A stretch of DNA of 64,000 nucleotides from Paenibacillus sabinae T27 (GTDB taxonomy: Bacteria > Bacillota > Bacilli > Paenibacillales > Paenibacillaceae). The DNA is taken from positions 1,538,001 to 1,602,000 of the forward strand of contig NZ_CP004078.1 in assembly GCF_000612505.1 (NCBI RefSeq), given 5' to 3'. The first letter of the stretch is position 1. Every line of letters starts with the position of its first letter. Position numbers and translations under genes: made by a program. The notes beneath the pieces are model-generated. The model was not told the DNA's origin. It made no database searches and worked only from the letters and a program-made list of their open reading frames with translations. Positions 17,452 to 64,000 of this stretch are shown here, piece after piece.

Positions 17452-17491
17452 TGGAAGAGCTATTCGGTCTATAGACTGTGGAGGTGAAGGT

Positions 17492-48900: not shown

Positions 48901-49650
48901 GTGCAGAAAATGAACGGAACACAAACGCTCAGCCGCGCGCTGGATATTCTGTTCGCCTTGGCGGAAGCCGGCGATACGCTTACGGTCAGCGAGATTGCCG
49001 AGAAGGTCTCGATACCGGAGAGCAGCACGTACCGGTTTCTCCAGACGCTGGAGCAGAACGGCATCGTGGAGAGAAGGGGGAGAAGCCGGATCGCGTTGGG
49101 GCTGCGGATTCTGGATCTGGCAAGAAGCCTCAACCTGCAGTTTCAGCGGGACCTGCTGCCCCTGGCTCTGCCGATTATGGAGGAGCTGACGGAGAAGGTG
49201 CAGGAAACGTCGGTGCTGTTCGTGCGGACCGGCAATAATGCCGTGTGCATCCAGAATGTCAAAAGCAACAGCCTGATCCAGTTCTCCATCGAGAATGGAC
49301 GGATTCTGCCGCTGCATTTGGGCGCTTCAGGCAAATGTATCCTTGCTTTTGAGAGCGACAAGGTCGCTCAGCGGATTTTTCAGACCATTGAGGATGCAGA
49401 GGACAGAGCGCGCCTGGAAGCGGAGCTGGAAGCGGCCCGGGCTCACCAATATATCATCACCAAAGGCGAGGTAGATCCCGATGTATTCGCCGTCGCCGCC
49501 CCGATTACGGACGGTCACGCCCATGCGGTAGCCAGTCTGTCCGTGGCCGGTCCAAGCTTCCGCTGCAGCCCGGAGCGGGAAGGGGTAATCATTGAAGCGG
49601 TGAAGCAGGCTGCGGCCGAGTTGTCGCGGCGGATGGGGGCTGCACATTAA
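48901..49650 (+). CDS. IclR-family transcriptional regulator
   Basis: The protein has about 249 residues: winged helix-turn-helix (LSRALDILFALAEAGDTLTVSEIAEKVSIPESSTYRFLQTLEQNGIVERR) and IclR effector domain (LPLHLGASGKCILAF, HQYIITKGEVDPDVFAVAAPI). Start is either GTG 48901, behind GAGGAG, or ATG 48910, behind GGAAGG. It precedes the proposed ergothioneine operon and is its likely regulator; an inverted repeat lies in the operon leader. Confidence 0.9.
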   Translation: MQKMNGTQTLSRALDILFALAEAGDTLTVSEIAEKVSIPESSTYRFLQTLEQNGIVERRGRSRIALGLRILDLARSLNLQFQRDLLPLALPIMEELTEKVQETSVLFVRTGNNAVCIQNVKSNSLIQFSIENGRILPLHLGASGKCILAFESDKVAQRIFQTIEDAEDRARLEAELEAARAHQYIITKGEVDPDVFAVAAPITDGHAHAVASLSVAGPSFRCSPEREGVIIEAVKQAAAELSRRMGAAH

Positions 49651-49687
49651 TTTTTTTAAATTCCGACGAAAACACTAGAATTAATAG

Positions 49688-49717
49688 TTGACAAAATGAT
49701 GTAATGAATAATAATAT
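49688..49717 (+). promoter_or_regulatory. Promoter of the proposed ergothioneine operon
   Basis: TTGACA (49688-49693), 18 bases, TAATAT (49712-49717). It gives a leader of about 300 bases before the first permease gene. Confidence 0.6.
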
Positions 49718-49806
49718 TGAAATGTGGAATTTGATTATCACATGTTAATAAATAATCCTTGATTATGGATGAATCATTCGTATCAAGCCGAAATTTTCTG
49801 GCGCTT

Positions 49807-49834
49807 ATCACAAGCATCTCATGGTGTTTGTGAT
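49807..49834. promoter_or_regulatory. Inverted repeat in the operon leader
   Basis: ATCACAAGCA and TGTTTGTGAT are inverted arms of 10 bases with one mismatch (a G-T pair in RNA), separated by eight bases. It could bind the IclR protein or fold in the leader RNA. Confidence 0.45.
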
Positions 49835-49900
49835 TTATCTTCACCCTAATTCATATTATATTGATTTGAATACTACATATTTGTGAGGTGTTCCACGGCT

Positions 49901-50008
49901 ATGAAATCCATTCTGCCTCTTCTTGTGAAAATCCTGGGAACCGGGCGATGTCGACGCTCCAACATCACGCGGCAAACGGCATCATTTGCTTTTGCCATTT
50001 TTTTTTGA
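49901..50008 (+). CDS. Possible small leader peptide (35 residues)
   Basis: ATG at 49901 follows GAGGTG by 10 bases, and the frame stays open to a TGA at 50006, just at the ribosome site of the first permease gene. The peptide begins MKSILPLLVKILGTGR and ends in a hydrophobic FAFAIFF. No homologue is recognised. Translation could couple to the downstream gene, or the frame may be chance. Confidence 0.3.
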   Translation: MKSILPLLVKILGTGRCRRSNITRQTASFAFAIFF

Positions 50009-50023
50009 AGGCGGTGACCCGGA

Positions 50024-50665
50024 TTGATTGATCAGATGCTCGAATATCTGTCCAAGAATCACGACGTCTATCTTAAAGCCGTACTGACGCACATCGGCAT
50101 CAGTCTTGCGGTTGTAACCATTGGCATATTGATCGCTGTTCCACTCGGGGTACTGTGCGCCAAGTTTTTAAAGCTGTCCCAGCCGGTCCAGGGACTGTTT
50201 AACATTTTTCGTCTGATTCCGAGCCTCGCCGTTCTCGTCGTGATGATGCCGGTGCTCGGAACAGGGCTGGCTCCCGCCATATTTGCGTTGACGCTGCTTG
50301 CTTTTCCGGCGATTTTAATCAACACGAGCATTGGCTTCACGGGGATCAATCCTTCGGTTATCGAGGCGGCCAGAGGGATGGGGATGAGCCCGCGCAGGAT
50401 TCTGTTCACGGTTGAATTTCCGCTTGCTTTTCCCATGATTATCACGGGAATAAGAACGGCTGCGGTGGAAGTGATTGCGAGCGCAGCGTTGGCCGCTTAT
50501 ATCGGCGCCGGCGGTCTAGGGGAGCTGATCATCATCGGACTCCAGGTGCCAAGCACAGCTATTTTACTTGTCGGGGGGGTGTCGGTAGCGATCCTGTCCA
50601 TAGCGGCGGACGTCATTCTTGCCATTACCCAGAAGAGACTTACGAGACATTTGTGGCTGAACTGA
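50024..50665 (+). CDS. OpuC-type quaternary-amine ABC permease
   Basis: The protein has 213 residues and five to six helices. GLFNIFRLIPSLAVLVVMMPVLGTGLAPA, VIEAARGMGMSPRRILFTVEFPLAFPMI and YIGAGGLGELIIIGL are signatures of OpuBB/OpuCB permeases. TTG start at 50024 behind AAGGCGGTGA. Ergothioneine is a trimethylammonium betaine, so an OpuC-type importer suits the downstream enzymes better than a histidine importer. Confidence 0.88.
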   Translation: MIDQMLEYLSKNHDVYLKAVLTHIGISLAVVTIGILIAVPLGVLCAKFLKLSQPVQGLFNIFRLIPSLAVLVVMMPVLGTGLAPAIFALTLLAFPAILINTSIGFTGINPSVIEAARGMGMSPRRILFTVEFPLAFPMIITGIRTAAVEVIASAALAAYIGAGGLGELIIIGLQVPSTAILLVGGVSVAILSIAADVILAITQKRLTRHLWLN

Positions 50666-50715
50666 GATTGGGCGGTAGAACTGATAAATATTTTTAGTTG
50701 GGGAGAGGAAACCAT

Positions 50716-51648
50716 ATGAAAAAATCCAAGAAGTCCATATTCACCACTACGCTACTGGCCATTGTCGTCCTTTCTGCATTGCTCTCGCTCGCCGGCTGCT
50801 CCAAGGGAAGCGCAAGCGGCCCGGCCATTACGGTAGGCTCTAAAGATTTCACGGAGTCGCTGGTTCTTGCCGAGATTTATGCAAAGGCGCTCGAAGACAA
50901 CGGATTTTCGGTGAAGAGAGAATTTAACATCAGCGGGCAAGGGCCCCACGAGGCGCTGCTGAAAGGCAGCATTGATTTATATCCGGAATATACCGGAACG
51001 GCGTTAACGGTTATTTTGAAGGAACCGGCATTGTTTGACGCCAAGGAAGTGTACGACAAGGTTGCCGCCGAGTACAAAGACAAGTTCAAGCTCGACCTGC
51101 TCGATCAGGCCAATATCAATGACTCGCAAGGTCTGGTTATCACCAAGAAAGCTTCAGATCAATACGGCATCAAGACGATTTCCGATCTGCAGAAGAATGC
51201 GGACAAGATCAGATATGCCTCCAACGGTTCGTTTGATCAACGCGAGGATGGACTGATCGGCCTGAAAAAAGTATACGGAGAGTTCAACTTCAAATCCTCA
51301 AAGGTCTATGACGACGGCATCAAGTATCAGGTGCTTAAAAATGACGAGGCCGATCTGGCCGTAGCCTACACGACAGAGGGTTCGCTGGTTGATCCGCAAT
51401 TCGTCGTGCTGGATGATGACAAACATCTGTGGCCTCCTTATTATGTAGCGCCGGTCGTCAGAGAGAACGTCATAAAGGATTCGCCGAAGGTGGCGACCAT
51501 TCTGAATGCCGTGTCGGCGAAGCTTGACAACCCAACGATTATCAAGCTCAACGCCGCCGTCGATATCGACAAAAAAGAGTATGAAGAAGTCGCGGGCGAC
51601 TATTTCGAGACCATCAAAGCCGATGTGAAAGCGGCAGCGGACAAATAA
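50716..51648 (+). CDS. OpuC-type substrate-binding lipoprotein
   Basis: The protein has 310 residues: lipobox LAGC, then the OpuAC-type domain (ITVGSKDFTESLVLAEIYAKALEDNGF, LLKGSIDLYPEYTGTALTVIL, IRYASNGSFDQREDGLIGLKKVYG). ATG at 50716 follows GGGGAGAGG. It should bind a quaternary amine. The proposed ligand here is ergothioneine, as with the related EgtU importer; that is inference from the neighbouring enzymes. Confidence 0.88.
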   Translation: MKKSKKSIFTTTLLAIVVLSALLSLAGCSKGSASGPAITVGSKDFTESLVLAEIYAKALEDNGFSVKREFNISGQGPHEALLKGSIDLYPEYTGTALTVILKEPALFDAKEVYDKVAAEYKDKFKLDLLDQANINDSQGLVITKKASDQYGIKTISDLQKNADKIRYASNGSFDQREDGLIGLKKVYGEFNFKSSKVYDDGIKYQVLKNDEADLAVAYTTEGSLVDPQFVVLDDDKHLWPPYYVAPVVRENVIKDSPKVATILNAVSAKLDNPTIIKLNAAVDIDKKEYEEVAGDYFETIKADVKAAADK

Positions 51649-51668
51649 GATTACGAACCCAATAGGAA

Positions 51669-51710
51669 ATGAAAACCACGTATCGTTTCGGGTAGTGGTT
51701 TTCATTTTTT
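51669..51710 (+). terminator. Attenuating terminator after binding-protein gene
   Basis: ATGAAAACCAC pairs perfectly with GTGGTTTTCAT (11 bp), followed by TTTTT. It likely lowers expression of the ATPase and enzyme genes relative to the binding protein. Confidence 0.85.
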
Positions 51711-51746
51711 CTTGGCGGTTGTCAGTTGAAAAGGGGTTGATCTTCG

Positions 51747-52781
51747 GTGAGCAGGATAGCGCTTGAATTTAAAAATATAAGAAAAAGGTTCCCCCATGCG
51801 GAGGCCGACTCCGTTTCCGGTGTCAGTCTTACCGTTAATGAGGGCGATTTTGTCACGATACTTGGAACGTCGGGCTCCGGGAAAACCACGCTGTTAAAAA
51901 TGGTCAACCGGATCTATGAGAGCACTTCTGGCGATATCTGCTTCTATGGCGAAAATATTAAAAAGCTGAAGGTAGAGGACTACCGGAGAAAAATCGGCTA
52001 TGTCATCCAGCAAATCGGGCTGTTCCCTCATATGACCGTGGCGGACAACATTGCTACCGTGCCCAAAATTCTTCGCTGGAGTAAGGAGAAAATCAATGCC
52101 CGCGTGGACGAGCTGCTGGAACTGGTTGGATTGCCGGGCGAGAGCTACAGGAAGAGGTATCCTTCACAGTTATCCGGCGGGCAGCAGCAGAGAATCGGGC
52201 TGGCGCGGGCCATGGCTGCCGATCCTCAGGTCATGCTGATGGATGAGCCGTTCGGCGCGATTGATGCGATCACGAGACAGAATTTGCAGGATGAACTGAT
52301 CCGCATTCAGACAAAGCTGAACAAAACGATACTTTTTGTCACCCATGACATTCATGAAGCCTTTAAGCTCGGCAACAAAGTCATCATTATGGATCAGGGG
52401 AAAGTCCAGCAGTTTGACACGCCGTACAATATTCTTTTTCATCCTGCCAATGAATTTGTGGCGCAATTGGTAGCTTCCGAGAATATCATCAACCGGCTCA
52501 AGATTCTGAAAGCAGAAACCGCTGTGCAGCCCTTAACAAGGGACCCGGATGATTCGGATATTTATATCGGCAAGGAAGAGTTTCTCGACAGTGTGCTGTC
52601 CAAGTTTTTTGAAAGCGGCAGGAAGTCTATCATTGTGAAGGATGCGGACGGTCAGCCAGTTGGTGAAATCGCGTGGGATCAGTTGAACGGGCTGCTGCAA
52701 TTACAAGCCGACAGGGTGCAGACGGGCAACCCAAGCCGAAACGGTGAGAAGGTGAACATTCATGCTCCAATCCATCGCTGA
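51747..52781 (+). CDS. OpuC-type ABC transporter ATP-binding protein
   Basis: The protein has 344 residues. Walker A GTSGSGKTT (Lys46), signature LSGGQQQRIGLARAMA, Walker B VMLMDEPFGAID and a C-terminal region (DSDIYIGKEEFLDSVLSKFFESGRKSIIVKDADGQPVGEI) like the regulatory tail of OpuCA. GTG start at 51747 behind AAGGGG. It overlaps the next permease gene by 20 bases. Confidence 0.92.
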   Translation: MSRIALEFKNIRKRFPHAEADSVSGVSLTVNEGDFVTILGTSGSGKTTLLKMVNRIYESTSGDICFYGENIKKLKVEDYRRKIGYVIQQIGLFPHMTVADNIATVPKILRWSKEKINARVDELLELVGLPGESYRKRYPSQLSGGQQQRIGLARAMAADPQVMLMDEPFGAIDAITRQNLQDELIRIQTKLNKTILFVTHDIHEAFKLGNKVIIMDQGKVQQFDTPYNILFHPANEFVAQLVASENIINRLKILKAETAVQPLTRDPDDSDIYIGKEEFLDSVLSKFFESGRKSIIVKDADGQPVGEIAWDQLNGLLQLQADRVQTGNPSRNGEKVNIHAPIHR

Positions 52782-53439
52782 TTTTCTGGCCTACTTCGTC
52801 AAATATGGTGACAAAATGCTCGAGATGACGCTTGAGCACCTGCAAATCGTTACGCTTGTGCTGCTTATTTCAATCCTGATCGCCATGCCGCTCAGCCTTG
52901 CTCTCTATCGTTCGCACAAGCTGGCAACGATTGTACTGGCTGTGCTGGGAGCGCTGTACGCCATTCCGAGCCTGGCCTTCTTTGCGATCCTGATCCCGCT
53001 TCTCGGGCTCGGCATTCCAACAGCCGTTACCGTGCTGGTCGTCTATACCCAATTTATTTTGGTGAGAAATATTCTCGCAGGTTTCAGATCGGTCGATCCG
53101 TTCTTGCTGGAAGCGGGGCGAGGGATGGGGCTCAGCGCTTCGCAGCTATTCTTCAAAGTGCAGCTGCCGCTTGCCATGCCTGCCTTGCTCGGCGGCCTCA
53201 GGCTGGCGGTCATTTCCGCTATCGGGATGGCGACCATCGCGGCCATGATTGGAGCGGGAGGTCTGGGTACGCTGCTGTTTGACGGTCTCCGCATGAATTT
53301 TGCATACAAGATCATATGGGGAACGATTCTGGCCTTTGCGCTGTCACTGATTGCCAACCGGATTCTTCTGTTCTTTGAAAAACGGGCGATGAAACGGGCG
53401 CGCGGCGAACAGTATTTGCCAAAAACGGAGGCGGCGTAA
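52762..53439 (+). CDS. OpuC-type quaternary-amine ABC permease (second)
   Basis: The protein has 225 residues. GALYAIPSLAFFAILIPLLGLG, LEAGRGMGLSASQLFFKVQLPLAMPALLGG and MIGAGGLGTLLFDGL are OpuCD-type signatures. It completes a four-protein importer with two distinct permeases, in the order permease, binding protein, ATPase, permease. Confidence 0.9.
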   Translation: MLQSIADFLAYFVKYGDKMLEMTLEHLQIVTLVLLISILIAMPLSLALYRSHKLATIVLAVLGALYAIPSLAFFAILIPLLGLGIPTAVTVLVVYTQFILVRNILAGFRSVDPFLLEAGRGMGLSASQLFFKVQLPLAMPALLGGLRLAVISAIGMATIAAMIGAGGLGTLLFDGLRMNFAYKIIWGTILAFALSLIANRILLFFEKRAMKRARGEQYLPKTEAA

Positions 53440-53457
53440 AGCCGGGAGCAGATTCTC

Positions 53458-54393
53458 ATGAACAAAATTCCTTTAATCATGGATGTCGATACCGGCACGG
53501 ACGATGCCATTGCCATTATCTGCGCGCTGATGAGCACGGAGGTGCTGGATATCAAAGCATTCACCGCCGTCGCCGGAAATGTTGGAGTCGATCTTACGAG
53601 CAGCAATACTCTTAATATTGTGGATTATCTTGGCTTTGACATTCCTGTTGCGGTCGGAGCGGCGCAGCCGCTTGCCAAGGAGCTGCATACCGCGATCAGT
53701 CATGGCCGGGCCGGACTCGGGGATGTGACTGTGCCGAAGTCGAACCGGTCATTTTACGGAAAGAATGCGGCTGACACGATCTATGAGCATGCCGCTGCCA
53801 TGGAAGGCGAGCTTGAAATTGTGGCCGTCGGCCCGCTAACCAATATTGCCGAGGCCATCCTTCGCTACCCGGATATTGTCCGCTTAATTAAACGGATTAC
53901 GATAATGGGCGGCGCGCTCCGGGGCGGCAACATGACCCCGGCTTCCGAGTTTAATCTGTATGTCGATCCGGACGCCGGGAAAATCGTGTTCGAGTCCGGC
54001 ATTCCTCTGGTGATGGTCGGGCTGGATGTGACGTTGAAGCCGCAGCTTCCGCTTGCGGTTGTGGAAACTGTCAAGCGGCTGGACAACAAATTTGCCGGCC
54101 TGGCGGCCCGGATTTTCGACTTTATGCTGCGCCGCTGCGAGCAGTTCGGCTTTGATCCGCCGAATGTCCATGATGCCATCGCTTTGGCCAGCCTGGTCGT
54201 TCCCGGGCTCGTTACGCTGAACCGGTATGCGATGACGGTCGAGACCGAAGGAACGGTAACCCGCGGCATGACTGTCGCGGACTTCAACAATGTTACGGGG
54301 AAAGAACCGAATGTGAGCGTTGCGGTTGATATCGACTGCAATCGGTTCTGGGACTGGATGACAGGCAAATTTTTAAGCGCGGAGAGAGATTGA
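53458..54393 (+). CDS. Nucleoside hydrolase-like protein (IU-NH family)
   Basis: The protein has 311 residues. The calcium-binding DVDTGTDDAIAI motif, GPLTNIAEA, MGGALRGGN, NLYVDPDAGKIVF and the HDAIALA motif identify an inosine-uridine nucleoside hydrolase fold. It starts 18 bases after the permease gene and ends 21 bases before the hydratase, so it belongs to the operon. A nucleoside hydrolase is not part of known histidine or ergothioneine breakdown; its substrate here is open. Confidence 0.88.
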   Translation: MNKIPLIMDVDTGTDDAIAIICALMSTEVLDIKAFTAVAGNVGVDLTSSNTLNIVDYLGFDIPVAVGAAQPLAKELHTAISHGRAGLGDVTVPKSNRSFYGKNAADTIYEHAAAMEGELEIVAVGPLTNIAEAILRYPDIVRLIKRITIMGGALRGGNMTPASEFNLYVDPDAGKIVFESGIPLVMVGLDVTLKPQLPLAVVETVKRLDNKFAGLAARIFDFMLRRCEQFGFDPPNVHDAIALASLVVPGLVTLNRYAMTVETEGTVTRGMTVADFNNVTGKEPNVSVAVDIDCNRFWDWMTGKFLSAERD

Positions 54394-54414
54394 AACAGAA
54401 AGGATGGGATAGCC

Positions 54415-56079
54415 GTGAGCAGAATTACGGCGGCAAGAGGAGGAGAGCTTCGCTGCAAGGGGTGGCGTCAGGAAGCGCTGCTGCGGATGCTGGAGAATGT
54501 GCTGGAGAATGGCGAGAACCAGAAGGAGCTGATTGTCTATGCATCATTGGGCAAAGCGGCGCGGAACTGGCCGTCCTACAGAGCCATTGTGGACACGCTG
54601 AAGAATCTGGAAGAGGACGAGACGCTGGTCATTCAATCGGGCAAACCGATCGGAATCTTCCGCACGCATCGCCAGGCTCCGCTCGTTGTAATGGCGAACT
54701 GCAATCTGGTGGGCCGATGGGCGACCAGTGAGAACTTCTATGAATTGCAGGACAAAGGTCTGATCATCTGGGGAGGGCTGACCGCAGCCGCCTGGCAGTA
54801 CATCGGTTCCCAGGGCGTGATTCAGGGAACGTATGAAATCTTCCAGAGCATTGCCCGCCTGCATTTCGGCGGAAGCCTGCAGGGCCGTTTCATTCTGACC
54901 GCCGGCCTTGGCGGCATGGGCGGTTCTCAGCCGCTGGCCGGAACGATGGCGGGCGCAGCGATTTTATGCGTGGAGGTCGCGGAGGAACGGATCGACAAGC
55001 GCATTTCGGCGGGGTACTTGCAGCGCAAGACCGCAAGCCTGGATGAAGCGCTGGCCTGGATCGAAGAGGCGAAAGGTAGCGGAGAGGCGCTGTCAGTCGG
55101 CCTGCTTGGCAATGCCGCCGACGTGTACCCCGAGCTGCTGGCCAGCGGGGTGCTGCCGGATATTGTGACGGACCAGACCTCCGCGCATGATCTGCTCTAC
55201 GGGTATATTCCGAGCGGCTATACCCCCGCCGCTGCGGCGGCGGCCCGCAAGACGGACCCGGCTGGACTTCAGGAAGCCGCCGGAACGTCGATTGCGGCTG
55301 AAGTCGGAGCGATGCTGGAATTCAAGGAGCGCGGCGCGGTTGTCTTCGATAACGGCAACAACATCCGTTCGCAGGCGGTGAAGTACGGCATTGCTAACGC
55401 TTTTGACATCGACATCTTCACGGAAGCCTTCCTACGTCCCTTGTTCGCCCGGGCCATCGGCCCGTTCCGCTGGATCGCCCTCAGCGGCGACCCGCAGGAC
55501 ATCCGGACGATCGACGAATATATTTTGCGGGAATTCAGTGACAACGAGATCGTGTCGAACTGGATCAAGCTGGCGAACATTCACGTACCGGTCGAAGGGC
55601 TGCCTGCCCGGATCGGCTGGTTCGGCCACCGCGATCGCAGCAGGCTGGCGCTGGCCGTGAATGCCATGGTTCGTGAAGGCAAGCTGAGCGGTCCGGTAGC
55701 GTTCTCGCGCGACCATCTGGATGCGGCCGCCATGGCCCACCCGAACATCATGACGGAACGGATGAAGGACGGCAGCGACGCGATTGCCGACTGGCCGCTG
55801 CTGAACGCGATGCTGAACTGCTCCTCCATGGCTGATCTGGTGGCCATTCATTCAGGCGGCGGAGGCTATGCAGGGTACATGACGAGCGCCGGCGTTACCA
55901 TTGTCGCCGATGGCAAGGAGGAGAGCGATCTGCGCCTGCGGACCGCACTCGATAACGATACCGGTCTGGGCGTGCTCCGCTATGCGGATGCCGGATACGA
56001 GGAGTCGCTGGACGAGGTGGAACGCAAGGGAATCGCAAGAATCGATACCCGCAGGCATGAGGAGATTGTGGCGGACTAA
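54415..56079 (+). CDS. Urocanase-family hydratase, probable thiourocanate hydratase
   Basis: The protein has 554 residues, a normal urocanase length, with the NAD-binding region TAGLGGMGGSQPLAGTMAGA. The strongly conserved urocanase block LDSGSVASPxRETE is replaced by LDAAAMAHPNIMTE (435-448), so the usual Arg-Glu is lost. HHGGGVG reads HSGGGGY. These changes argue against urocanate and for a relative such as thiourocanate hydratase of ergothioneine catabolism. GTG start at 54415 behind AAAGGA. Confidence 0.82.
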   Translation: MSRITAARGGELRCKGWRQEALLRMLENVLENGENQKELIVYASLGKAARNWPSYRAIVDTLKNLEEDETLVIQSGKPIGIFRTHRQAPLVVMANCNLVGRWATSENFYELQDKGLIIWGGLTAAAWQYIGSQGVIQGTYEIFQSIARLHFGGSLQGRFILTAGLGGMGGSQPLAGTMAGAAILCVEVAEERIDKRISAGYLQRKTASLDEALAWIEEAKGSGEALSVGLLGNAADVYPELLASGVLPDIVTDQTSAHDLLYGYIPSGYTPAAAAAARKTDPAGLQEAAGTSIAAEVGAMLEFKERGAVVFDNGNNIRSQAVKYGIANAFDIDIFTEAFLRPLFARAIGPFRWIALSGDPQDIRTIDEYILREFSDNEIVSNWIKLANIHVPVEGLPARIGWFGHRDRSRLALAVNAMVREGKLSGPVAFSRDHLDAAAMAHPNIMTERMKDGSDAIADWPLLNAMLNCSSMADLVAIHSGGGGYAGYMTSAGVTIVADGKEESDLRLRTALDNDTGLGVLRYADAGYEESLDEVERKGIARIDTRRHEEIVAD

Positions 56080-56217
56080 AATTTGTACCGGCTGACATTT
56101 GGCCGACATGATACGTGATGCAAAAAATAACGGCGGCGAGCCGGAAAAGCGCTTGAAATAGGCGGAAGATCTTTCGTACCGCTGCGCCCGGCTTGCCGGA
56201 GAAGGAGAATGGGGTAA

Positions 56218-57324
56218 ATGAGAGAGTTAACGAGAGATGATGTAAACGCCGCGGTTAGAGGCGGTTCGGTATTTGCCAGCGGCGGGGGCGGCTGGGTGGA
56301 CCACGGTCTGGATATCGGTCACGCCGCGCTCAGCGTGGGCCGTCCGAAGCTGGTGTCGGTCGATGAGCTGCCGGAAGACGCCATTATTCTGACCTGCACA
56401 GCTATTGGCGCACCTGCGGGCCGGGACTGGCAAATGCTTGGCAAAGATTATATCAAAGCCGTGCAGCTGGTCATCGACCACTATGACGGCAAAATTGCCG
56501 GGGTCATGACGCCGCAGAACGGAATGTCCAGCACGATCAACGGCTGGCTGCCTGCGGCCGCGCTCGGCCTTGTCGTTGTGGACGCCACCGGGGACATCCG
56601 AGCCCATCCCACGGGCAAAATGGGCTCGCTCGGCCTCGCCTCGTCCATTGATTACGAGACGGTCCAGGCGGTTGCCGGCGGCAAGCCGGAGCTGGGCAGC
56701 TACATTGAGCTGGTCGTCAAAGGAACCCCGGCGCGGACTTCGAACATTTTGCGCACCGCGTCGGACATGGCCGGCGGCTTCATCGCCGCGGCGCGCCATC
56801 CGCTCCCGGCGAAATATATCAAGGAGCATGCCGCGCTGGGCGGCATCTCGATTGCGATTGAGCTGGGGCGGGCGATCCTTGCGGCCGAGCCGGACGGCGC
56901 GGAGGCGGTGCTTGACACGATCGTGCGCCATACTAAGGGCAGAATTGTCGGCAAAGGTACAGTGACGAAGAAAAATGTGCACTATTCCGGCGCTTTTGAT
57001 ATCGGCACCATTGAAGTGGAAATTCCGGGGAGTTCGCTGACCCTGCACGTGATGAACGAATATATGGCGGTGGACGACCGGTCGGGCACACGGCTGACCA
57101 CCTTCCCTGATGTCATTACGACCATCGATTTGGCCACAGGCCGTCCGGTCAGTGTAGGGGATCTTAAGGAAGGGCAGGAGATTGCTGTGTTTGCCATTGA
57201 CCAATCGAATGTTCCGCTTAGCTCCAGCGTCAAGGACCCGAGCGTCTATCCCGAAGTGGAAGCGGTGCTGGGAATCGACCTTCAGAGCTACGCCTTCGGC
57301 AAGGAGAAGCAGGTTCATGCCTGA
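56218..57324 (+). CDS. DUF917-family protein, probable thiohydantoin desulfurase
   Basis: The protein has 368 residues. GGSVFASGGGG near the N-terminus, PQNGMSSTINGWLPAAALGLVVVDATGDIRAHPTGKMGSLGL in the middle and a C-terminal beta-rich part are DUF917 (now linked to thiohydantoin desulfurization). In ergothioneine catabolism this enzyme removes sulfur from 3-(5-oxo-2-thioxoimidazolidin-4-yl)propionate, the product of thiourocanate hydratase. GGAGAATGGGG precedes the ATG. The next gene overlaps its end by eight bases. Confidence 0.82.
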   Translation: MRELTRDDVNAAVRGGSVFASGGGGWVDHGLDIGHAALSVGRPKLVSVDELPEDAIILTCTAIGAPAGRDWQMLGKDYIKAVQLVIDHYDGKIAGVMTPQNGMSSTINGWLPAAALGLVVVDATGDIRAHPTGKMGSLGLASSIDYETVQAVAGGKPELGSYIELVVKGTPARTSNILRTASDMAGGFIAAARHPLPAKYIKEHAALGGISIAIELGRAILAAEPDGAEAVLDTIVRHTKGRIVGKGTVTKKNVHYSGAFDIGTIEVEIPGSSLTLHVMNEYMAVDDRSGTRLTTFPDVITTIDLATGRPVSVGDLKEGQEIAVFAIDQSNVPLSSSVKDPSVYPEVEAVLGIDLQSYAFGKEKQVHA

Positions 57325-58861
57325 GAGAAGCCGCCCGGTCTCCGTCGGCGCTCTGGTGCTGGACGGAACCGGTCTTAGTGTGTCCGATGTGGACAGCGTT
57401 GCCCGGGGTAACCGGAAGGTTGTAATCGCGCCGAGCGCCTGGGAACGGCTGGAGAAGGCTCGGCAGGTTATCTTCGAGCTGGCGGAAGAAGGACTGCCCG
57501 TATACGGGTTGAACCGGGGCGTGGGCTGGAATAAGGACAAAGTCATTTCTCCCGGCTTGTATGAAGATTACAACCGCAGCCTGCTGCTGTCCCACAGCGC
57601 GGGAATCAAGCCTGAAGCCCCGGAAGAGGTGGTGCGGGCGGCGATGCTCGCCCGGCTGAACGGCCTGCTCGCCGGGGCCACCGGCTCGCAGCCGGAAATC
57701 GCCGCGCGCTACGCCGATTTCCTCAATCTGGGGCTTCACCCCGTTCTGCCGCTGCGCGGTTCGGTGGGCGCCGCGGATATCACCCTGATCGCCCACCTGG
57801 GTCTGGCGATGATCGGGGAAGGGGAGGCGCAGCTTGGCGGACGCCGCCTACCGGCCAAGCAGGCGCTGACGGAGCTTGGACTGGCTCCGCTGCTGCTGGG
57901 GCCCAAGGACGGGCTGGCCATCGTCAGCTCCAATGCGCTCTCCGCCGGGAACGGCGCGCTGGCGCTGCATGATCTGGCCGGATTGCTGGAAGCTGCCGAT
58001 GCGGTGTACGCCCTGTCGCTGGAGGCGATTCGCGGCAATGTCAGCCCGCTGGACGAAGCCGTTCACGGTAAGCGCCCATTCCGGGGGCAGCTTGCAAGCG
58101 CGGCGAATGTCCGCAAGAACCTTGCCGGCAGCGGCCTGTGGGAGGCGTATAATCCGGACTCCCTGCAGGACCCGCTCAGCTTCCGTGATGCCTGTCAGAT
58201 CCACGGCGCCGCCCGTGACGCGCTTGCCTATACCCGGGAGCTGCTGGAGATTCATCTGAACAGCACGGACGACAATCCGTGCGTGCTGGCGGAAGAGCGG
58301 CGCATATTATCCTGCGCCAATTTTGATCCCGTGGTCTGGACGCTCGGCTTCGAGATGCTGGGCAGCGCCCTGCATCATGTCGCCAAAAGCTCCTGCTACC
58401 GCATCCTCAAGCTGGGCGATCCGGCCTTTACCGGCCTCAGCCGTTTTCTGACGCCGGATGCGGAACGCTCAATCGGCTTCGGCACCGTCCAGAAGACGGC
58501 CTCTTCGCTGGATGCGGAAATCCGCCATCTGAGCAACCCGGCCTCCACCGATTATATGTCGCTGGCGGGAGATATCGAGGACCACGGGACCAACGCGCCG
58601 TTTGTCGTCTCCAAGACAAGGGAGATCATTGACCGGCTGACCTATATGCTGGCGATTGAAGCCATTCACGCCGCGCAGGCCATCGACCTGCGCGGCGGGG
58701 TTAAGCTGGGACGGGGAACGGAGGCAGCGTACTGGCTGCTCCGCTCCGCCGTGCCGTTTCTGGATGCCGACCGCTGCCAGACGATTGATATTGAGGCGGC
58801 GTACCGGCTGATTAAGGAAGGGGAGTGGCTGGAAGCGGTACGGCAGGCGGTACGCGAGTAG
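57317..58861 (+). CDS. Histidine ammonia-lyase homologue lacking MIO triad, probable ergothionase
   Basis: The protein has 514 residues. The lyase fold is clear (VYGLNRGVGWNKD, NSTDDNPCVL, GFGTVQKTASSLDAEIRHLSNPAS). The cofactor loop reads GSVGAADITLIAH (148-160) instead of GSVGASGDLAPLAH: the Ala-Ser-Gly that cyclises to MIO is gone and the loop is one residue shorter. Ergothionase, which eliminates trimethylamine from ergothioneine, is a lyase homologue that needs no MIO. The neighbouring genes support that role. ATG at 57317 overlaps the DUF917 stop. Confidence 0.85.
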   Translation: MPERSRPVSVGALVLDGTGLSVSDVDSVARGNRKVVIAPSAWERLEKARQVIFELAEEGLPVYGLNRGVGWNKDKVISPGLYEDYNRSLLLSHSAGIKPEAPEEVVRAAMLARLNGLLAGATGSQPEIAARYADFLNLGLHPVLPLRGSVGAADITLIAHLGLAMIGEGEAQLGGRRLPAKQALTELGLAPLLLGPKDGLAIVSSNALSAGNGALALHDLAGLLEAADAVYALSLEAIRGNVSPLDEAVHGKRPFRGQLASAANVRKNLAGSGLWEAYNPDSLQDPLSFRDACQIHGAARDALAYTRELLEIHLNSTDDNPCVLAEERRILSCANFDPVVWTLGFEMLGSALHHVAKSSCYRILKLGDPAFTGLSRFLTPDAERSIGFGTVQKTASSLDAEIRHLSNPASTDYMSLAGDIEDHGTNAPFVVSKTREIIDRLTYMLAIEAIHAAQAIDLRGGVKLGRGTEAAYWLLRSAVPFLDADRCQTIDIEAAYRLIKEGEWLEAVRQAVRE

Positions 58862-59147: not shown

Positions 59148-59172
59148 GCAGGCAGATGCCTGCTTTTTTTTC
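59148..59172 (+). terminator. Second terminator before FAD oxidoreductase operon
   Basis: GCAGGCAGATGCCTGC is a compact hairpin followed by eight or more T. Confidence 0.85.
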
Positions 59173-59189: not shown

Positions 59190-59258
59190 AAGTCAAAAAA
59201 ATACACGCCAACCGGTATGAGAGCTATACCGTATTTTTGACCGCCGGTTGCTATAATG
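59190..59258 (+). promoter_or_regulatory. Operator-like repeats and extended -10 promoter
   Basis: AAAGTCAAAAA at 59190-59200 is mirrored by GTATTTTTGAC at 59232-59242, and CGGTAT/ATACCG lie inverted between them. TTGCTATAAT (59249-59258) is an extended -10 element for the FAD oxidoreductase gene. A related AAAGTCAAAAA block lies at 62542. Confidence 0.55.
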
Positions 59259-59321
59259 GGGTCGAATAGAAGCGGCGGACCCTGCCGGGAGCGGGAATCC
59301 GCCGGGAAAGCGAGGCTCGCA

Positions 59322-60689
59322 ATGGATAGCTACAGATTGAAGAGCAGGGAAATCCCGCTGAATACTTCCTATGAGGTGATCGTCGTCGGGGGCGGGCCGG
59401 CGGGCTGCACCGCCGCGGCGTCGGCCGCGCGGGAAGGGGCGAAGACGCTGCTGATCGAGGCCACCGGAAGTCTCGGCGGAATGGGGACATCGGGGCTGGT
59501 CCCGGCATGGTGCCCGTTCTCGGATAAGGAGAAAATGGTCTATCGCGGGCTGGCGGAGAAGGTGTTCGAGTCGCTGAAGGCGCAGATGCCCCATGTGAAG
59601 CCGGACGCGCTCGATTGGGTGCCGATCGAACCGGAGAAGCTGAAGGTCGTCTACGACGATCTGGTGACGGAGGCGGGAGCCGACGTACTGTTTCTGACCT
59701 CGCTGGCCGAGGTGGAGACGGACGGGCAGGGAAACGTGACGGCGATTGTTGCCCTGAACAAGGGCGGACTGCAGGCGTTTCAGGCGCCGGTGTATATCGA
59801 TTGCACGGGCGACGGGGATGTCGCCGCCTGGGCGGGAGCGGAGTACCGGAAAGGCGACAGCGACACCGGCGATCTCCAGCCGGCCACTCACTGCTTCGTC
59901 CTCGGCAATGTTGACGATTACGCTTATCTATACGGTCCGCTTCTCCATAAGGAGAACCCGCAAAGCCCGATCCATGAAGCGGTGGCCTCGGGCCGATATC
60001 CGAATGTGCCGGACACCCATCTCTGCAACAACCTTATTGCGCCTCGCGCCGTCGGCTTCAACGCCGGCCATCTGTGGCAGGTGGACAATACGGACGCCCA
60101 TTCCGTATCCAGGGCGCTGATCCGCGGACGAAAAATGGCCGCCGCCTACCGCGACATGCTGGCTGATATTCAGCCTGCTTCTTTCGGCAACGCTTATGTC
60201 GCCAGCACCGGCACGCTGATGGGTACCCGCGAATCGCGGCGCATCATCGGGGACTACGTGCTGACGGTGGATGACTATGTCTCCCGCCGGAGCTTCGAGG
60301 ACGAGATTTGCCGCAACAGCTACTTCATCGATGTGCACGGCACCGAGAAGGAGGAGAAGAGCGAGGCGGGCTCGGCGCAGACGATTACGCTGTACGGACC
60401 CGGCGAATCGCACGGCATCCCCTACCGCTGCCTGACGCCGCGCGGGCTGCGTAATGTGCTTGTGGCCGGGCGGTCCATCTCCTGCGAGCGCCGGGTGCTC
60501 GGCAGCGTCCGCGTCATGCCGGTCTGCCTCGCGATGGGCGAAGCCGCAGGATTGGCCGCAGCTCTCGCCGCCATGACGGACGGCGATGTGCATGCGGTTG
60601 ACGTCGGCCGGCTGCGGCAGCGCCTGCGGGAAGAAGGGGCCTATCTGCCCGAGATGTCCGCCGCCGGGAACAGGGGTGACGTGAAATGA
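59322..60689 (+). CDS. FAD-dependent oxidoreductase (FAD_oxidored family)
   Basis: The protein has 455 residues. N-terminal VIVVGGGPAGCTAAASAAREGAKTLLIE binds FAD; GSLGGMGTSGLVPAW and YIDCTGDGDVAAWAGAEY follow, and the end has LVAGRSISCERRVLGSVRVMPVCLAMGEAAG. This family is common next to carbohydrate importers; substrates are mostly unassigned. ATG at 59322 follows GAGG. It overlaps the permease gene by four bases, so oxidation of an imported sugar or polyol is plausible. Confidence 0.88.
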   Translation: MDSYRLKSREIPLNTSYEVIVVGGGPAGCTAAASAAREGAKTLLIEATGSLGGMGTSGLVPAWCPFSDKEKMVYRGLAEKVFESLKAQMPHVKPDALDWVPIEPEKLKVVYDDLVTEAGADVLFLTSLAEVETDGQGNVTAIVALNKGGLQAFQAPVYIDCTGDGDVAAWAGAEYRKGDSDTGDLQPATHCFVLGNVDDYAYLYGPLLHKENPQSPIHEAVASGRYPNVPDTHLCNNLIAPRAVGFNAGHLWQVDNTDAHSVSRALIRGRKMAAAYRDMLADIQPASFGNAYVASTGTLMGTRESRRIIGDYVLTVDDYVSRRSFEDEICRNSYFIDVHGTEKEEKSEAGSAQTITLYGPGESHGIPYRCLTPRGLRNVLVAGRSISCERRVLGSVRVMPVCLAMGEAAGLAAALAAMTDGDVHAVDVGRLRQRLREEGAYLPEMSAAGNRGDVK

Positions 60690-61627
60690 GCCACCACGCA
60701 ACCGTACAGAAGCAGCTCGCCGCTGCCGAAAAAAGAACGTTCTGGACCCGCCGGAGGCGCGAACAGCTGGCCGGCTGGCTGTTCATCGCGCCCGAGGTCA
60801 TCGGCATGCTCGTTCTCGCCGTGTTTCCGCTGGTCTTCAGCCTTGGCCTCAGCCTGACCGAGTGGAATCTGGTCGGCGGCCTGTCCGCCATCAAGTTTAT
60901 CGGCCTCGATAATTTTGCCGAGCTGTTCCGGGACGACCGGTTCCTAAAGGCGCTGAAGAACAATATCGGCTTCACCGCCGGCACCGTGCCGGCGACGATG
61001 CTGCTGGGCGTCGTTTTTGCGGCTATCATACACAAGAAGTTGTACTTCAAGGATTTTTTCAAGGTGGCGTTCTTCGTTCCCTATATTTGTTCGACGGTCG
61101 CGGTTTCCGCGGTGTGGTCGGCGCTCTATCATCCGTCCAAGGGACCGCTCAACCAGATGCTGATCCATCTTGGCATCTCGGATCCGCCCCGCTGGCTGGT
61201 GGACACGAGCTGGTCGCTCGTTGCCATCATGGTGATCTATATCTGGCAGCTGCTCGGGTACCAGATCATCATTTTTCTGGCGGGAATGACCAATATTCCG
61301 GATGAGCTCTACGAGGCGGCGACGATCGACGGCGCGACCGGCTTCCAGCAGTTTCGGCGGATCACGCTGCCGCTGCTTGGGCCGACGACTTTTTTTCTGG
61401 CGATTACCAGCACCATCTCTTCGTTCAAGGTATTTGACATGATCAAGTTCCTCACCAACGGGGGACCCAATTATTCCAGCACAGTGATTGTATACCAGAT
61501 TTACGAAGAAGGCTTCCAGCACTTCCGGATGGGTTATGCTTCGGCCATGTCCTGGGTACTGTTCCTGATCATCATGCTCGTGACTTCGCTGACCTGGATC
61601 ACCCAGAGCCGGAAGGTGCATTATTAA
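60686..61627 (+). CDS. CUT1 ABC permease (MalF/UgpA type)
   Basis: The protein has 313 residues with six helices plus a basic N-terminal tail. EAA loop YEAATIDGATGFQQFRRITLPLLGPT and FKVFDMIKFLTNGGPNYSS are typical. The start ATG overlaps the oxidoreductase stop (ATGA), showing tight coupling. Confidence 0.9.
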   Translation: MSHHATVQKQLAAAEKRTFWTRRRREQLAGWLFIAPEVIGMLVLAVFPLVFSLGLSLTEWNLVGGLSAIKFIGLDNFAELFRDDRFLKALKNNIGFTAGTVPATMLLGVVFAAIIHKKLYFKDFFKVAFFVPYICSTVAVSAVWSALYHPSKGPLNQMLIHLGISDPPRWLVDTSWSLVAIMVIYIWQLLGYQIIIFLAGMTNIPDELYEAATIDGATGFQQFRRITLPLLGPTTFFLAITSTISSFKVFDMIKFLTNGGPNYSSTVIVYQIYEEGFQHFRMGYASAMSWVLFLIIMLVTSLTWITQSRKVHY

Positions 61628-61666
61628 GTTTCGATATGAAGTCTTGAAGAAAGGACATAAGCGCAT

Positions 61667-62503
61667 ATGACGATACGAAAAATCAAGCTAGGACCTATCG
61701 TGCTGACGGTGCTGTTCGGCGCTCTATCGATCTTCTTCCTGCTGCCGCTGGTCTGGATGATGTCCGCCGCCTCCAAGACGGAGAAAGAGGTCTGGACGTT
61801 TCCGATTCAGTGGATTCCTAAGGATTGGCATTTTGCCCAGAATTTCAAGACGGTCTGGATGGGGGATGTCTCCTTTGGCCTCTTCTATATGAACTCGGTC
61901 AAAATCGCTCTGATCTCCACGCTCGCAACGCTCATCGTCTCCGCCATGGCCGGCTATGCGCTGTCCAAGCTGAAATTTACGGGAAAAGGTCTCGTCTTCA
62001 GCGCCATGATGGCCTTTATGATGATCCCGGAGCAGGCGACGCTCGTTCCCCGTTATATCATGATCAAGGAAATGGGACTGTACGATACGCACGCCGCGCT
62101 CATTGTGATGGGCATGTTCTCCAGTTATTTCACCTTTTTGCTCCGGCAGTTCATGATCGGGGTGCATAATGATCTGCTGGAAGCGGCTGAGCTGGACGGC
62201 GCCGGATTCTACCGCATTTTCTGGAGCGTCATGCTCCCCTTGAGCCGCCCCATACTGGCCACTGTCGGCATCATCAAATTCATCTGGACCTGGAATGACT
62301 ATCAGGGACCGCTGATCATGCTGAATTCGACCAATCTGTATACGATTCCGCTCGGCATGCAGTTCTTCAAGGAGGAGTTTGGAACGACGATTTCCGTAAT
62401 GATGATGGCTTCGCTTGCCGCCATTATTCCACTGCTCGTGCTGTTCTTGGTATTGCAGAAGCAGGTTATCAAGGGCATTTCCATAGGCGGGGTCAAGGGT
62501 TAA
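61667..62503 (+). CDS. CUT1 ABC permease (MalG/UgpE type)
   Basis: The protein has 278 residues and six helices. EAA loop LEAAELDGAGFYRIFWSVMLPLSRPI and C-terminal KQVIKGISIGGVKG are typical. AAAGGAC precedes the ATG. It pairs with the permease at 60686. Confidence 0.9.
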   Translation: MTIRKIKLGPIVLTVLFGALSIFFLLPLVWMMSAASKTEKEVWTFPIQWIPKDWHFAQNFKTVWMGDVSFGLFYMNSVKIALISTLATLIVSAMAGYALSKLKFTGKGLVFSAMMAFMMIPEQATLVPRYIMIKEMGLYDTHAALIVMGMFSSYFTFLLRQFMIGVHNDLLEAAELDGAGFYRIFWSVMLPLSRPILATVGIIKFIWTWNDYQGPLIMLNSTNLYTIPLGMQFFKEEFGTTISVMMMASLAAIIPLLVLFLVLQKQVIKGISIGGVKG

Positions 62504-62541
62504 ACGCGCCCGGCTTGTCCGGCGGAACTTTCGAAAGACGC

Positions 62542-62610
62542 AAAGTCAAAAATGTCTACGCCCGAACCGCAAGACTGTACACGGTGCCCGCGGAGGCAAG
62601 GTAGTATAAT
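62542..62610 (+). promoter_or_regulatory. Operator-like block and -10 element before last binding-protein gene
   Basis: AAAGTCAAAAATGTCTACGC (62542-62561) matches the block at 59190 at 16 of 20 positions. TATAAT lies at 62605-62610, 35 bases before the gene, so this gene may have its own promoter under the same regulator. Confidence 0.5.
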
Positions 62611-62644
62611 TAAATTGCATCAACCAACTGAAGGGGGAAATGGT

Positions 62645-64000
62645 ATGAAGAAGCCTGCATTATGGGTGGCTGGCCTGCTGCTGACGTTCTCGGTCACCGC
62701 ATGTTCCGGAAGCGGGAATGCTCCGGCCGCGAGCGATAAAGGGACTGGCGCCGATCCTACCGCGGCAACCCAGACAAAGACACCGGAGAAAGAGAAGATC
62801 AAATTTTACACCTTTAAGTCCAATAAACCGGAGGAGCCCACATACCAGGCGGTTCAGGCCTACAACCAGTCGCAGGATAAGGTCGAGGTGGAATATGTTT
62901 CGCTTGTCCAGAACAGCGACAGCACGGAGTTCCTGAAGAAGCTGGACGTTCTCATTGCCGGGGGCGAAGTTGTAGACGCTTTCATGACCGGGAATGAGGA
63001 AGAATTGATGGAACGGGCTTCGCGCGGAGTTGTGGAACCGCTTAACTCGTATTTTGAGGCCGAGGGCGTCAAGCCAGAGGATGAATATTTCAAGGTGCTC
63101 AAGCTGGATGACAAAGTCTATGGGCTGATGCCTTCCGCGACGCAGTGGTTCACGGTCTTCAACAAACAGCAGCTGGATGAGGCTGGCCTTAAGCTTCCTG
63201 AAATGGGCTGGACCTGGGACGACTTCCGCGATTACGCCAAAAAGCTGACGACTCCGGATCATTACGGAACGTATTTCCATACCTGGGGCGAATATGCGAA
63301 CATCATCGCGTACACCGAGCATCCGAATCCTCAGCTGACCCCTGACCTGAAGCCGATCTTCGATGACCCGTCCTTCAAATATTTCTTTGGCCTCCGCCGC
63401 GCCATGGAGAAGGAAGACAAGAGCGTTGAGCCTTATGCGGATGTGCTGGCCTCGAACTATCATGTGCTGCAGCAGTTTTTTGCCGGCAAAGCCAGTATGC
63501 TGGCCGTTCCGAGCTACGCTGTCCGGGCGGGTCTCAATCTCGAGAAATTCCCGCATGATTTTCAGATGGTGTACGCTCCGCTTCCCCGTTCGGTTGATGC
63601 AACCGATGTCGGCATGACGAATATTTCCGGCGGCGGTCTGGCGGTAGGCGCCAAGTCGGCGCACAAGCAGGCGGCGTATGATTTCATCCGGTGGATGACC
63701 AAGGAATCCTACAAGTACACGAAGGAAATTCCGGCGCTGAAAAATGTCGACGGCAAGGCGCTGCTGGAACAATTTTTTAGCGAGAACAAAAACTTGATCG
63801 ATACCGACTCGCTCGCCAAAACTCTGTTCGACAGCCGCAACAAAATGCCAGAGGGCACCTTCACCGTTCCCTATGGCAGCCAGCTGAAGACCATTGTCGA
63901 AAACTCCTTCGCCAGCTTTATGCTTGATAATCGCAAATTTGACGATGTCAAGGCGGAAATGACGGCGGAAGTTGAAAAGGTAGTCGCCGCCAACAAGTAA
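62645..64000 (+). CDS. CUT1 extracellular solute-binding lipoprotein
   Basis: The protein has 451 residues: lipobox SVTAC, a Thr/Pro/Lys-rich linker, then a binding domain (KIKFYTFKSNKPEEPTYQAVQAYN, GGEVVDAFMTGNEEELMERASRGVVEPLNSYF, GWTWDDFRDYAKKLTTPDHYGTYFHTWGEY). The ATG at 62645 follows AAGGGGGAAA. It is the binding protein for the permeases at 60686 and 61667; the window ends at its stop codon. Confidence 0.9.
   Translation: MKKPALWVAGLLLTFSVTACSGSGNAPAASDKGTGADPTAATQTKTPEKEKIKFYTFKSNKPEEPTYQAVQAYNQSQDKVEVEYVSLVQNSDSTEFLKKLDVLIAGGEVVDAFMTGNEEELMERASRGVVEPLNSYFEAEGVKPEDEYFKVLKLDDKVYGLMPSATQWFTVFNKQQLDEAGLKLPEMGWTWDDFRDYAKKLTTPDHYGTYFHTWGEYANIIAYTEHPNPQLTPDLKPIFDDPSFKYFFGLRRAMEKEDKSVEPYADVLASNYHVLQQFFAGKASMLAVPSYAVRAGLNLEKFPHDFQMVYAPLPRSVDATDVGMTNISGGGLAVGAKSAHKQAAYDFIRWMTKESYKYTKEIPALKNVDGKALLEQFFSENKNLIDTDSLAKTLFDSRNKMPEGTFTVPYGSQLKTIVENSFASFMLDNRKFDDVKAEMTAEVEKVVAANK

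Follow-up and report, generated by a model that had tools for sequence, protein, structure and literature searches.

A predicted ergothioneine-utilisation operon with a linked nucleoside hydrolase gene in Paenibacillus sabinae T27

Which compound is degraded by a bacterial gene cluster that encodes relatives of both histidine ammonia-lyase (HAL) and urocanase? We addressed this question for Paenibacillus sabinae T27, in which such a cluster occupies positions 48901-58861 of the DNA stretch analysed here (the window; 64,000 nucleotides, positions 1,538,001-1,602,000 of the 5.27 Mb single-contig genome). All of its genes lie on the plus strand: one for an IclR regulator and four for an OpuC-type importer are followed by genes for a nucleoside hydrolase and for proteins of the urocanase, DUF917 and HAL families. 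A preliminary description of the sequence had proposed an ergothioneine catabolic locus, and curated models, trees and the loss of a catalytic triad support this proposal. The cluster is very probably (probability roughly 0.93, judged from sequence comparison) an ergothioneine-utilisation (ert) operon, whose OpuC-type importer and IclR regulator accompany homologues of ergothionase, thiourocanate hydratase and thiohydantoin desulfurase. It likely imports ergothioneine and degrades it to trimethylamine, sulfide and hydantoin-5-propionate. The gene order described before, with urocanase-like and HAL-like genes on either side of the DUF917 gene, was confirmed. So was the absence of HutI and HutG, neither of which was found among the 10 locus proteins scanned with Pfam and NCBIfam models. 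The nucleoside hydrolase gene inside the operon was absent from that description.

Enzymes of the predicted pathway

The urocanase-family protein scored 1005.9 bits against the curated thiourocanate hydratase model NF058530 (cut-off 930). It also passed the hutU model (709 bits, cut-off 375), yet with a lower score than for thiourocanate hydratase. Protein Data Bank (PDB) entry 7ned matched with 1001 bits; this entry, a urocanase-family protein like that of the window, is listed in the PDB as urocanate hydratase, and we take it to be the enzyme studied as thiourocanate hydratase. The hydratase of a related ert locus (L041; L and G numbers are our labels for related loci and genomes) was identical to 7ned over all compared residues. 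A tree of 38 rows split into 31 of thiourocanate type (100/100), the window protein and 7ned among them, and 7 of HutU, and the two groups are distinguished by 36 fixed differences. The tree, a check proposed in the preliminary description, thus places the window protein outside the urocanate hydratases.

The DUF917 protein, which had been named a thiohydantoin desulfurase, passed the curated model for this enzyme (NF058529) with 607.8 bits (cut-off 440). Of the named relatives whose loci were fetched, Paenibacillus rhizophilus is the nearest, and its desulfurase is 96% identical. Degradation of S-methyl-ergothioneine instead of ergothioneine would be another use for such enzymes, and both proteins were indeed recognised by the S-methyl models, the hydratase with 791 and the desulfurase with 321 bits. 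These scores remained below the S-methyl cut-offs (880 and 450), whereas those for the ergothioneine models were above theirs, and this very improbable route was rejected.

The HAL-family lyase matched the solved ergothionase of Treponema denticola (6s7j) with 498 bits and 48% identity, compared with 221 bits for the best HutH and 35% identity to the HutH of its own genome. With 374.8 bits it did not reach the cut-off of the hutH model (539). The Ala-Ser-Gly triad of the 4-methylideneimidazole-5-one (MIO) cofactor is disrupted by a one-residue deletion in the window lyase and in 12 other aligned ert lyases, and it was kept in none of 95 lyase rows read from related loci (some genomes having been fetched twice); the HutH of the same genome retains it. 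Ergothionase is an enzyme without MIO cofactor according to PMC13405746. A HAL tree of 44 rows placed the lyase of the window within a clade of 16 rows (98/98) that includes the T. denticola enzyme, so that the lyase, when checked by tree and active site, sided with ergothionase and not with HutH. The likeness to the Treponema system, which was compared for the lyase alone, comprises identity, the missing triad and a common clade. HutH of the own genome and of Pseudomonas putida, the latter row flagged as a long branch, were placed in another clade (100/99), which also contained two other MIO-less groups.

A different MIO-less lyase (GSLGV-GDLQPMA) was seen in ert loci of Brevibacillus, Lederbergia and a Bacillus sp. 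(L107, L112, L118, L121-L124). Four of these lyases were placed in the tree, where they stand beside HutH and not with ergothionase.

An ordinary histidine-utilisation cluster with a stray DUF917 gene would account for the Pfam results, which give only the aromatic-lyase and urocanase families, and for the hutU score of the hydratase. The lyase, however, falls short of the hutH model, lacks the triad and groups with ergothionase. The hydratase has a much higher score with the thiourocanate model than with hutU and is separate from HutU in the tree. Moreover, a separate Hut operon is present at about 2.876-2.883 Mb of the same genome, about 1.28 Mb from the ert locus. It encodes HutH (690 bits, cut-off 539), HutU (982, cut-off 375) and HutI (489, cut-off 298); genes for an M20 amidase and for an amidohydrolase (257 of 362 bits on the formimidoylglutamate deiminase model) accompany them. 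The two loci have the HAL and urocanase superfamilies in common, whereas that of the window differs in its broken MIO triad, its lack of HutI and HutG and the separate clades of its enzymes. Based on the second operon, the triad and the trees, histidine utilisation was rejected as extremely unlikely.

For the favoured ert operon the following steps are predicted. Ergothioneine would be taken up by the OpuC-type importer, and the lyase would eliminate trimethylamine from it to yield thiourocanate. The urocanase homologue would hydrate thiourocanate to thiohydantoin propionate, in which the DUF917 enzyme would exchange sulfur for oxygen, leading to the release of sulfide and to hydantoin-5-propionate. 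Several points weigh against this assignment. The NCBIfam matches of the lyase included no ergothionase model, so that its assignment is drawn from homology, the tree and the missing MIO triad, and since other types of MIO-less HAL homologues exist, the missing triad by itself leaves the substrate unfixed. All three enzyme functions are predicted. The enzymes that complete the pathway, ErtD and ErtE, are missing, which makes full use of ergothioneine as a carbon source unlikely. Finally, in a motif-anchored alignment built without the ergothioneine-binding protein EgtUC itself, the window binding protein showed Phe in place of Gly244, Tyr in place of Phe293, Gln in place of Tyr341 and Ser in place of Glu375 of EgtUC.

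The pathway is already known and curated in NCBIfam, including ErtD and ErtE, and the core of the locus is a member of this known kind. As in many loci of Paenibacillaceae and Bacillaceae, ergothionase, hydratase and desulfurase genes stand in one operon with an importer and an IclR gene. Among 392 genomes sampled from the order, 27 encoded a thiourocanate hydratase above the model cut-off, at 29 places. We fetched the 28 places besides the window (26 genomes; loci end at 9 kb or at contig ends). Of these, 27 have a desulfurase, the exception being L055, and 26 have a lyase, which L055 and L066 lack; OpuC-type binding proteins occur in 27 and IclR genes in 20. In L050 and L057 the desulfurase match is split in two, as would be seen with a frameshift. 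Among the papers listed by a literature search, none concerned urocanate hydratase or desulfurase in ergothioneine breakdown, and no primary paper on ergothionase or on the reconstituted pathway came up, although no look-up by identifier was made.

A short form of the pathway

The dedicated steps from the hydantoin via N-carbamoyl-glutamate to glutamate would be those of ErtD (hydantoin-5-propionate amidohydrolase; curated NCBIfam models NF058538 and NF058539) and ErtE (N-carbamyl-glutamate amidohydrolase; NF058540). Neither is encoded in the window locus, and neither was found in the genome by these models, which together with the added nucleoside hydrolase gene distinguishes this locus from the known pathway. 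The best ErtD scores in the genome were 271 bits with NF058538 (cut-off 600) and 325 bits with NF058539 (cut-off 650), and the gene concerned passes the allantoinase model (641.5 bits, cut-off 631). For ErtE the best score was 429 bits (cut-off 520), obtained for the M20 gene of the Hut operon, for which ErtE is the best model. As all best scores were below the cut-offs, we rejected that ErtD and ErtE are encoded elsewhere in the genome.

This short form recurs among the relatives. Both ErtD and ErtE relatives were present in 15 of the 29 loci, and ErtD was absent in-locus from the other 14; for this reason ErtD was not treated as essential for membership among ert loci. ErtD genes within ert loci may themselves score below cut-off (513 of 650 bits in L040), and scores were therefore compared across genomes. 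With NF058539, 15 of 26 related genomes had a match of at least 457 bits, which is the range of in-locus ErtD, and the other 11 had none above 340. Counting the window genome with its 325 bits, recognisable ErtD is absent from 12 of the 27 genomes with thiourocanate hydratase. In a scan of named species with the desulfurase alignment, the best 80 of 412 confirmed matches, among them some cut contigs and several genomes of the first set, were accompanied by hydratase in 73 cases, lyase in 68, ErtE-like genes in 65 and ErtD-like genes in 67 (59 of one type and 8 of the other).

With the ErtD and ErtE steps missing, the operon might mainly serve nitrogen and sulfur scavenging, or its final steps might fall to a hydrolase of lower specificity from another locus. 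We tentatively consider the latter, that is, completion by the allantoinase (325 bits on NF058539), the M20 amidase of the Hut operon (429 of 520 bits for ErtE) or the product of a hydantoinase B gene at 2.98 Mb, which could carry out part of the missing steps. The allantoinase passes its own model, however, and stays well behind the in-locus ErtD proteins of relatives on NF058539, so that this proposal appears possible rather than probable. No paper on hydantoin-5-propionate, the Ert gene names or nitrogen or sulfur use was among those listed in the literature search.

The importer pocket and the linked nucleoside hydrolase

The preliminary description had named an importer suited to a betaine. 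Here the support for the interpretation is weakest: the class, OpuC-type, was correct, but several specificity residues of EgtU are missing when the ergothioneine contacts of EgtUC are taken from PMC9732360. Equivalents of Lys242, Thr296, Asn339, Arg379, Asp381, Tyr419 and Tyr443 are retained in the motif-anchored alignment. The window system thus resembles EgtU in the class of importer and binding protein and in seven contact residues, and differs from it in the four replaced ones and in having separate permease and binding-protein genes, which are fused in EgtU. Since Gly244, Phe293 and Glu375 of the pocket are replaced, an EgtU-type importer by residue signature was rejected. Phe at the first and Tyr at the second of these places are common to nearly all rows and do not set the window apart.

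Glu375 forms a hydrogen bond to an imidazole nitrogen, and Gln at this place causes an affinity loss of about 500-fold, according to PMC9732360. Glu was found there in 63 importer rows from loci without nucleoside hydrolase. The clade of the window has Ser (the window, L058/L096, L059, L061, L181 and also L056, with only a hydrolase fragment), and Cohnella pontilimi (L040/L120) has Ile; the rows repeat some genomes, and the clade of the window represents one lineage. A second binding protein of L044, L045 and L125 has Asp at this place.

The nucleoside hydrolase keeps the DTGTDD, GN..EFN and HD motifs in an alignment with Escherichia coli RihA. We take these to be the catalytic Asp cluster and the ribose-binding motifs of IUNH nucleoside hydrolases, and with both present the protein belongs to this family. 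Relatives were sought in two families not marked as subsampled, with up to 5 candidates scored per genome in one of the searches. Close relatives (at least 56% identity) occurred in 7 of 394 genomes of the window's family and in 1 of 104 genomes of a second family, that of G224. All eight copies adjoin genes for a MIO-less lyase and a urocanase-family protein, in at least three gene orders. Six are located in ert loci (window, G187, G313, G382, G837, G282), and within the operon of G837 the hydrolase gene has GH4 and Gfo/Idh genes as neighbours. The other two belong to Hut-type operons with an AraC regulator. The G224 operon combines the hydrolase with an OpuC-type importer, with lyase, HutU and HutI genes, with a HutG-like gene (220 of 229 bits) and with a divergent ribokinase gene. 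In G871 the hydrolase and lyase genes are accompanied by relatives of HutU and HutI and by a HutG-like gene (209 of 229 bits), and GH4 and PfkB kinase genes follow; no OpuC-type importer was seen in this stretch. The G224 lyase is named HutH by NCBIfam (586 bits, cut-off 539), and in the lyases of both operons (L173/L174 for G224, L180 for G871) the MIO triad is deleted (GSVGY---LTHMAH). This type made up 84 of 120 among the matches listed of one protein search. It might be a hercynine lyase; the literature search listed no paper on such an enzyme.

The hydrolase could be a passenger for the salvage of ordinary nucleosides, unrelated to ergothioneine. Its motifs are those of ordinary ribohydrolases, two further copies (42-45% identity, one genome in a phylum sample of 398) are located in a neighbourhood with nucleoside-type ATP-binding cassette (ABC) and ribokinase genes, and in L056 the gene is only a fragment. 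The association of all eight close copies with operons of the histidine-betaine type, across two families and several gene orders, argues against a passenger, for which we see about even odds.

Alternatively, and in extension of the ert reading rather than in exclusion of it, the imported substrate might be or include an N-ribosylated (glycosylated) histidine betaine, from which the hydrolase would remove the ribose to free ergothioneine before the lyase acts; this would be the weakest step of the mechanism. The same association of hydrolase, MIO-less lyase and urocanase-family genes favours it, as do the sugar-related genes of the neighbourhoods, namely the ribokinase of G224, the GH4 glycosidase and PfkB kinase of G871 and the GH4 and Gfo/Idh genes of G837. 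In addition, the Glu375 place is occupied by Ser or Ile in both of the ert lineages that carry the hydrolase, compared with Glu in the 63 rows from loci without it. These sequence features fit, without proving, an N-ribosylated histidine betaine as substrate. However, only 2 of the 80 named loci have the hydrolase, both already in the first set, L056 has Ser and keeps the operon with no more than a hydrolase fragment, and the G224 binding protein retains Glu despite the hydrolase. Homologues with 54-82% identity exist in other sources, including Sporolactobacillus, Lachnospiraceae, Treponema and Mesorhizobium. The terms ergothioneine riboside and hercynine riboside did not occur in the papers listed by the literature search, where the nearest subjects were ADP-ribosylation chemistry and N-ribosylhistidine detected by metabolomics; PMC11317665 gives the N-ribosylhistidine assignment as putative. 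A ribosylated substrate appears rather unlikely. Slightly more doubtful still is the fuller proposal of a conjugate-scavenging operon, in which the importer with its altered imidazole contact would take up N-ribosyl ergothioneine, the hydrolase would remove the ribose and the ert enzymes would release trimethylamine and sulfide, with the sister Hut-type operons acting likewise on ribosylated hercynine (histidine betaine).

Layout, origin and meaning of the operon

The features of the operon are given in Table 1. In the scan for control sites, promoters (12 versus 6.6) and terminators (23 versus 11.4) were found only about twice as often as in shuffled sequence, which makes single sites weak evidence; conservation of the upstream stretch in relatives is stronger evidence. 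Stretches resembling the operator-like site are present in L041, L042, L054, L057, L062 and L064. The core motif of the inverted repeat occurs in four of five close relatives' genomes (L058 = L096, L059, L061, L181) and is damaged in L056. No Rfam match above gathering score was obtained for 44-64 kb of the window, and control of the operon by a known riboswitch class was therefore rejected. The promoter-like site and the terminator-like hairpin suggest the operon borders, so that the genes beyond, from 59256, probably form a unit of their own. This stretch (59256-64000) encodes a flavin adenine dinucleotide (FAD)-dependent oxidoreductase, two sugar-type ABC permeases and a solute-binding protein, and it also adjoins the ert operon in L056, L058 and L059. 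In L181 (G837), the ert operon is separated from the FAD oxidoreductase gene by a gene for a DUF5050/copper-amine-oxidase-N protein and an IS630 transposase gene (15802-18861).

Table 1. Features of the predicted ert operon and its flanks (window positions).
Feature	Position	Strand	Evidence or remark
IclR-family regulator	48901..49650	+	PF01614 98 bits, PF09339 59 bits
Sigma-70-like promoter TTGACA-16-AATAAT	49688..49715	+	11/12 consensus positions; region conserved in related loci
Operator-like site TTATCACATGTTAATAA, candidate IclR site	49735..49751	+	
Inverted repeat ATCACAAGCATCTCATGGTGTTTGTGAT	49807..49834	+	
ABC permease A (OpuC/ProW class)	50024..50665	+	PF00528
Substrate-binding lipoprotein, OpuAC domain	50698..51648	+	PF04069 204 bits; Ser at EgtUC Glu375 place
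ABC ATPase, ProV/OpuCA class	51747..52781	+	TIGR01186 296 bits, below cut-off 326.6
ABC permease B	52762..53439	+	PF00528
Nucleoside hydrolase (IUNH family), predicted N-ribosidase	53458..54393	+	PF01156 285 bits
Thiourocanate hydratase (predicted)	54415..56079	+	NF058530, PDB 7ned match, tree
Thiohydantoin desulfurase (DUF917, S-Me-THD; predicted)	56218..57324	+	NF058529
Ergothionase (ergothioneine trimethylamine-lyase; predicted), MIO-less HAL family	57317..58861	+	plausible ATG at 57317
Intrinsic terminator-like hairpin and T tract	59148..59171	+	downstream of lyase gene

The G+C content is 50-55% in the importer and hydrolase genes and 60-64% in the three enzyme genes. In the trees the closest counterparts of the window enzymes, G837 aside, came from loci such as L054, L062 and L064, which have another type of binding protein and a flavin mononucleotide (FMN) monooxygenase. 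This split in G+C and the kinship with differently equipped loci indicate that the importer-hydrolase cassette and the enzyme core probably have different histories. In searches of plasmids, identity did not exceed about 41% for nucleoside hydrolases and about 58% for DUF917 genes. The FMN monooxygenase, of the NtaA/DmoA type, was seen in ten sister ert loci (L041, L042, L046, L048, L049, L054, L057, L060, L062, L064). Several loci of this kind also encode DUF427 proteins and EamA transporters, and some are without ErtD and ErtE; they possibly represent another sulfur route.

The locus is a case of a known pathway hidden behind HAL and urocanase family names. New are the short form without ErtD and ErtE and the linked hydrolase with an altered importer pocket; together they raise the testable, still unproven possibility of a ribosylated substrate. 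The recurrence of the short version suggests that cells may draw on ergothioneine for nitrogen and sulfur instead of carbon. A directly testable prediction follows from the hydrolase and the importer change, namely ribosylated ergothioneine or hercynine as substrate. Scavenging of such conjugates, if true, would reveal a class of natural glycosylated histidine betaines and the enzymes that open them.

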